Assembly: GCA_017539105.1 (NCBI GenBank)
Contig: JAFYHQ010000025.1
Coordinates: forward strand, 1-52,774
Length of the DNA: 52,774 nucleotides
DNA from: Erysipelotrichaceae bacterium
GTDB taxonomy: Bacteria > Bacillota_I > Bacilli_A > Erysipelotrichales > Erysipelotrichaceae
Reading direction: 5' to 3'
Within the stretch, counting starts at the first letter, position 1. Each line of letters begins with the position of its first letter. Made by a program: the position numbers and the translations under genes. Under the pieces are notes generated by a model. That model was not told the DNA's origin and did no database searches. It saw only the letters and a list, made by a program, of their open reading frames with translations. Shown here in pieces: positions 13,812 through 14,390 of this stretch.

Positions 13812-14030
13812 TTATTCGCTTACTTTGACCATAGCCGGTCTCAAAATACGATCTTTCAATACATAGCCTTTCTGTAGCACGGCAATGACGATGCCGGATT
13901 CCGTCTCTTCAACTTTCTCCTGCATGATGGCTTGCGCTTCATTCGGGTCGTAAGGCTTGTTCAGGCAGTCGATCTCATCGACCCCTTCTTTCTTCAAGGC
14001 ATTCAGCAGCTGCGTATATGTCATTTCCAC
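13812..14030 (-). CDS. grpE: GrpE C-terminal part, downstream of an in-frame stop
   Basis: 72 residues in the same reading frame as the upstream GrpE segment, separated from it only by TAA (14046-14048) and five sense codons (AFKKG). It holds the second helix of the four-helix bundle ([14 protein letters not shown]) and the beta-wing that contacts DnaK ([14 protein letters not shown] onward, ending [11 protein letters not shown]). If translated separately, it could start at GTG 14028-14030 or better at ATG 14022-14024, which has AAGAAGG eight bases upstream. Either grpE is truly split, or a single-base change or base-call error created the stop. Confidence 0.75.
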
Positions 14031-14045
14031 GCCCTTCTTGAACGC

Positions 14046-14390
14046 TTAATCCTCTTTGCTGACTTCCGTCGCCATCGCACGTTCCAGATTATCCAGCACC
14101 GGCAGGATCTCTTTGGCGAAATCCTGGATGCGATACTTCCGCATCTGTTCCGCCTCGCTGTTGAGACGCTTCTTCAGATTTTCCGTATCGGCATACGCTC
14201 TGGCATAATCATTCTTCAGTTTATCGATCTGCTTATTGAGTTTCGCGATCTCGTCTTCTTCATTGATATCTTCGACGATCTCTTCCACATCATCGGCAGT
14301 TTCGGTCGTATCTTCGATCGTTTCTTCCGCTTTTTCTTCTACGGCTTCTTCGATCTTTTCTTCTTTTTTCTTCTCTTCTTTGTTTGCCAT
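14046..14390 (-). CDS. grpE: GrpE N-terminal part, ends at an in-frame TAA
   Basis: 114 residues: an acidic, Lys/Glu-rich N-terminal tail (about 1-45), the long dimer-forming helix (about 46-90) and the first helix of the four-helix bundle (FAKEILPVLDNLERAM), then VSKED and TAA. A normal GrpE continues with a second bundle helix and the beta-wing; these are encoded in the same frame immediately after the stop (13812-14030). Together they would give a 192-residue protein of ordinary length. GrpE is the nucleotide exchange factor of DnaK. The gene starts 4 bp after hrcA and precedes dnaK in the usual order, with AGAAAGGATAGG as ribosome site. Confidence 0.85.
   Translation of the reverse strand: MANKEEKKKEEKIEEAVEEKAEETIEDTTETADDVEEIVEDINEEDEIAKLNKQIDKLKNDYARAYADTENLKKRLNSEAEQMRKYRIQDFAKEILPVLDNLERAMATEVSKED

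Follow-up and report, generated by a model that had tools for sequence, protein, structure and literature searches.

The grpE gene of this Erysipelotrichaceae genome, located at positions 13812..14390 on the minus strand of the window (the whole stretch of 52,774 nucleotides that was analysed, contig C19 of the assembly), is very probably an ordinary grpE carrying a private single-codon nonsense change, which is either a very recent allele or a mistake in the consensus or assembly. The minus-strand frame running from 14390 to 13812 contains exactly one inner stop, a TAA at 14046..14048, and the frame is unchanged on its two sides; the proposal of an earlier note on this DNA, that reading through the TAA yields one GrpE in the same frame, was thus borne out (114 aa, the stop and 77 aa). 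Both pieces are recognized by the Pfam GrpE profile (PF01025), with 57.8 bits for the N piece and 97 bits for the C piece against a cut-off of 25.8, and together they cover profile positions 15-84 and 90-165. In these scores, and in its place between hrcA and dnaK-dnaJ, the interrupted gene resembles the GrpE family, of which the structures 4ani and 1dkg have been solved; the intact protein of a sister genome matches 4ani across residues 21-187. The gene thus belongs to GrpE by its profile score, whereas the single open frame expected over the helices and the beta domain is broken by the TAA. A second grpE match was absent from the assembly (2.09 Mb in 48 contigs, rated 89% complete).

The stop was found in the present assembly (G000) only. 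Within the genus, 31 of 36 genomes, G000 included, have a grpE match, and within the family 242 of 272, a tally pooled from sub-searches of 150, 70, 9 and 13 genomes; at both levels an inner stop occurs in G000 only (0 of the 241 other matching family genomes), and in this the interrupted gene differs from the grpE matches of those genomes. The tally holds one genome per species, all of them other species, the nearest being about 89% identical. The two nearest relatives, G016 and G030, which share 88.9% and 86.5% identity with the window over about 10.4 kb, have an intact grpE with a sense codon at the site, and a sense codon stands there in all 29 aligned genus rows (the match in G034, without the locus, was left out of this alignment). 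Among 79 rows from a DnaK-based search, which contain as L031 the same sister gene that is L017 in the genus set, the site holds a sense codon in 69 and a gap in 10. An even draw across the phylum gave a grpE match in 143 of 144 genomes, with an inner TGA in 11 and an inner TAA in G000 alone. TGA is read as Trp in many Mollicutes.

The earlier note had stated that a sense codon in sister genomes would make the stop an error or a private mutation; such a codon was found in 29 of 29 genus rows, all from other species, and a nonsense mutation or a base-call error, two of the four options offered there, is favoured by it. A split shared by a lineage, as expected of a naturally split protein, was not seen, the stop occurring in one of the 242 matching family genomes at one genome per species. 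With privacy measured at that depth, the change may be fixed across this species. Identity around the stop (14001-14100) is ordinary, 0.93 and 0.83 against the two nearest relatives, with no mosaic sign; the spots of low identity to both relatives are confined to the disordered N-terminal tail of GrpE, the stretch separating hrcA from the next gene, and parts of 16.4-17.3 kb.

Recurrent splitting of grpE in other genomes was considered and rejected after weak or doubled matches in 17 genomes had been re-examined. G036 has two overlapping grpE matches in different frames (G036:C1:531126-531607; L125 and L132) with no inner stop, probably a frameshift or indel error in a single-contig genome that is 58% complete. 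In G043 the two grpE pieces are spread over two contigs, and as the first piece reaches the end of its stretch, this was taken as a contig end; the partial matches of G062, G102, G196 and G063 were likewise taken as contig ends from their coordinates, the missing gene parts being unseen. An exact-phrase literature search on grpE returned matches for truncated GrpE only, and none for split, pseudogene, nonsense, frameshift or interrupted.

To assess the general quality of the assembly, 593,092 bases of G016 were reduced to 512 greedy, non-overlapping frames, and these were compared with 780,430 bases of G000, a match being called orthologue-like at no less than 75% identity and 60% coverage. 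An inner stop was found in one of the 151 orthologue-like G000 genes (51,722 aa), namely grpE, the other 150 being clean. Since grpE alone had an inner stop among the genes compared, its lesion is an isolated event, which a single error and a single mutation fit equally. In the reverse comparison, inner stops turned up in 3 of 144 G016 genes; by visual judgement these were antisense or shadow frames. Each direction also yielded one further split match, with no inner stop involved. Without overlap removal the comparison had yielded 25 of 75 and 27 of 75; these figures were set aside, as they included stop-to-stop frames from either strand. A generally error-prone assembly is unsupported by these figures for the sampled G000 genes.

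Selection on the gene was compared on the two sides of the stop. Between G000 and its nearest relative (L017), dN/dS was 0.453 in the disordered tail and 0.07 in the part of the core that precedes the stop; beyond the stop it was 0.145, a value higher than the 0.051 and 0.062 found after the stop site in two other pairs. With G030 as the outgroup, four silent changes and one replacement could be assigned to the G000 branch before the stop, with four more differing codons unplaced, and three silent and one replacement after it, with two unplaced. On these small numbers neither half of grpE shows clearly relaxed selection, and the lack of clear decay implies that the stop is very young, that it is absent in reality, or that a full-length protein is still made. 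We infer that the stop is young or erroneous. Between these two forms of the preferred reading, an error is slightly favoured over a real young allele, perhaps one at strain level, as a matter of judgement and not of measurement.

To place the stop in the protein, the intact sister GrpE (L031) was modelled with AlphaFold as a monomer, using 51 of 79 available GrpE sequences; the model has a mean pLDDT of 83.6 and a pTM of 0.60, the residue blocks 101-110 and 111-120 averaging 90 and 93. This model, the only source of the helix limits given here, has helices at residues 24-80, 84-102 and 107-129, with a loop at 103-106 and the beta domain following the third helix. The residue equivalent to the stop is 110 (sister numbering), which belongs to the opening turn of the third helix rather than to the loop between the bundle helices where the earlier note had located it. 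Nor would the two pieces keep whole secondary elements, as had been supposed, since the proposed restart Met, residue 118, is in the middle of the same helix. If the stop is real, ribosomes would halt after 114 residues, giving a product made up of the disordered tail and the first two helices, one long and one short. Such a product would be without the third helix and the DnaK-contacting beta domain, and with these missing, nucleotide exchange would be expected to be lost or much reduced.

Reading of the TAA as a sense codon, whether regulated or constitutive, would give a full-length GrpE that retains the invariant glycine discussed below and all of the helices, and it agrees both with the unchanged frame and with the lack of clear decay in the part after the stop. 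It is nevertheless highly improbable. TAA ends 73 of 138 orthologue-like G000 genes, and 66 of these 73 end within five residues of the end of the sister gene, so that TAA does terminate translation here. No tRNA with a TTA anticodon was found among 41 tRNAs in 780,430 of 2,087,058 bases, which is 37% of the assembly. The RNA fold after the stop is ordinary (z of -1.02, against -0.84 for the roughly matching stretch of the sister), with no structured read-through signal seen, and none of the matching family relatives has a stop at that site. Recoding, which would call for a stop conserved at the site or a reassigned TAA, is thus at odds with the sense codon in every aligned genus row and with the use of TAA as a terminator; read-through, another of the options in the earlier note, gained no positive support. 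A change of the genetic code was also considered and rejected, TAA being the commonest terminator among the compared genes.

The remaining option of the earlier note was a two-piece GrpE. In the form considered here, its N piece would end at the TAA and its C piece would restart at the in-frame ATG at 14022..14024 (minus strand), both joining in the four-helix bundle. The word AAGAAGG does lie eight bases upstream of this ATG, as described in the note. Its anti-SD duplex energy of -6.7 kcal/mol is stronger than the -4.7 at the gene's own start, the short distance from stop to ATG would permit coupled re-initiation, and the part after the stop is without clear decay; the 70 aa product from this ATG scores 86.5 bits against the Pfam GrpE profile. 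Measured against chance, the SD-like word stands out only a little: of 196 internal in-frame ATGs in 17 minus-strand genes of the window, 10 score as well or better, the proposed one among them. The exact word is uncommon in relatives: among the 29 aligned genus rows it occurs only in the sister L017, and beyond the genus in 3 further rows of the set. That sister has an intact grpE and carries the same AAGAAGG and ATG, so neither arose together with the stop. The ATG is in itself an ordinary conserved Met codon, present at this position in 104 of 108 other rows.

A further difficulty for two pieces is the glycine encoded by GGC at 14031..14033 (minus strand), a residue shared by 109 of 109 aligned rows and, without exception, by the 51 rows of a second alignment. 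The codons from the stop to the ATG are GCG TTC AAG AAG GGC GTG GAA, in which the first ATG, GTG or TTG is the GTG after GGC. Every such restart up to the proposed ATG falls downstream of the glycine, so that a restart product would begin without it, and the product of the proposed ATG would also be missing 11 of the 23 residues of the third helix in the sister model. This glycine aligns with Gly122 of E. coli GrpE and pairs with residue 122 of 1dkg, the crystallised GrpE carrying G122D, an allele named grpE280. According to a passage in PMC10825016, G122D renders the E. coli exchange factor inactive. The same position is concerned in the two cases, as a restart product here would lack the glycine; the E. 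coli change is a substitution, whereas the present grpE, provided that the codon is real, would be truncated.

Loss of the invariant glycine, a restart in mid-helix and the presence of the SD-like word in an intact sister weaken the two-piece option; whole structural elements and invariant residues in both pieces, as a working pair would show, were not found in the sister model and the alignments, and the 241 other matching family genomes have no in-frame stop. A two-piece assembly as described is therefore barely credible, and a natural two-polypeptide GrpE whose C piece is made by coupled re-initiation and works without the Gly122 equivalent strains belief in the same way. Were it real, a dimeric nucleotide exchange factor would be built here in an unexpected manner. 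On the preferred reading of a private nonsense change or error, the case shows how one codon in an assembled genome can mimic a split gene.

An old, fixed pseudogene in a lineage that has dispensed with GrpE is hardly to be believed either, as there is no second lesion, no clear replacement excess after the stop, and dnaK, dnaJ and hrcA are open, even though loss of the system need not kill in this phylum if, as a passage in PMC9886141 states of DnaK and not of GrpE alone, B. subtilis can grow normally without DnaK. The effect of the stop on function is likewise something we infer, and how surprising a dead grpE would be, as the earlier note had it, depends on the lineage: set beside the B. 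subtilis statement is one in a passage of PMC10803776, that GrpE function is essential in M. smegmatis. A real grpE null is possible in this phylum.

The genes next to grpE, each with a Pfam match, place it in a gene cluster on the minus strand with hrcA, dnaK and dnaJ. Clustering of hrcA, grpE, dnaK and dnaJ is common in Firmicutes and is not strictly defining for GrpE. Upstream in the operon is hrcA (14394..15425, minus strand, 343 aa), directly downstream of grpE is dnaK (11960..13798, minus strand, 612 aa), and the cluster goes on with dnaJ (10799..11938, minus strand, 379 aa); a gene for a ClpB-type AAA+ protein (8177..10729, minus strand, 850 aa) is found nearby, and all four are open. 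Elsewhere in the window, the minus-strand open frames at 29853-33443 (1196 aa) and 385-1344 (319 aa) have no Pfam match at an E value of 1e-10 or better. Three CIRCE-like HrcA boxes were found, at 15439-15465, 15480-15506 and 10742-10768, with 2, 2 and 3 mismatches, the mean expected by chance being 0.02. Two of them are close together upstream of hrcA; the third precedes the ClpB-type gene, so that this gene too may be under HrcA control here.
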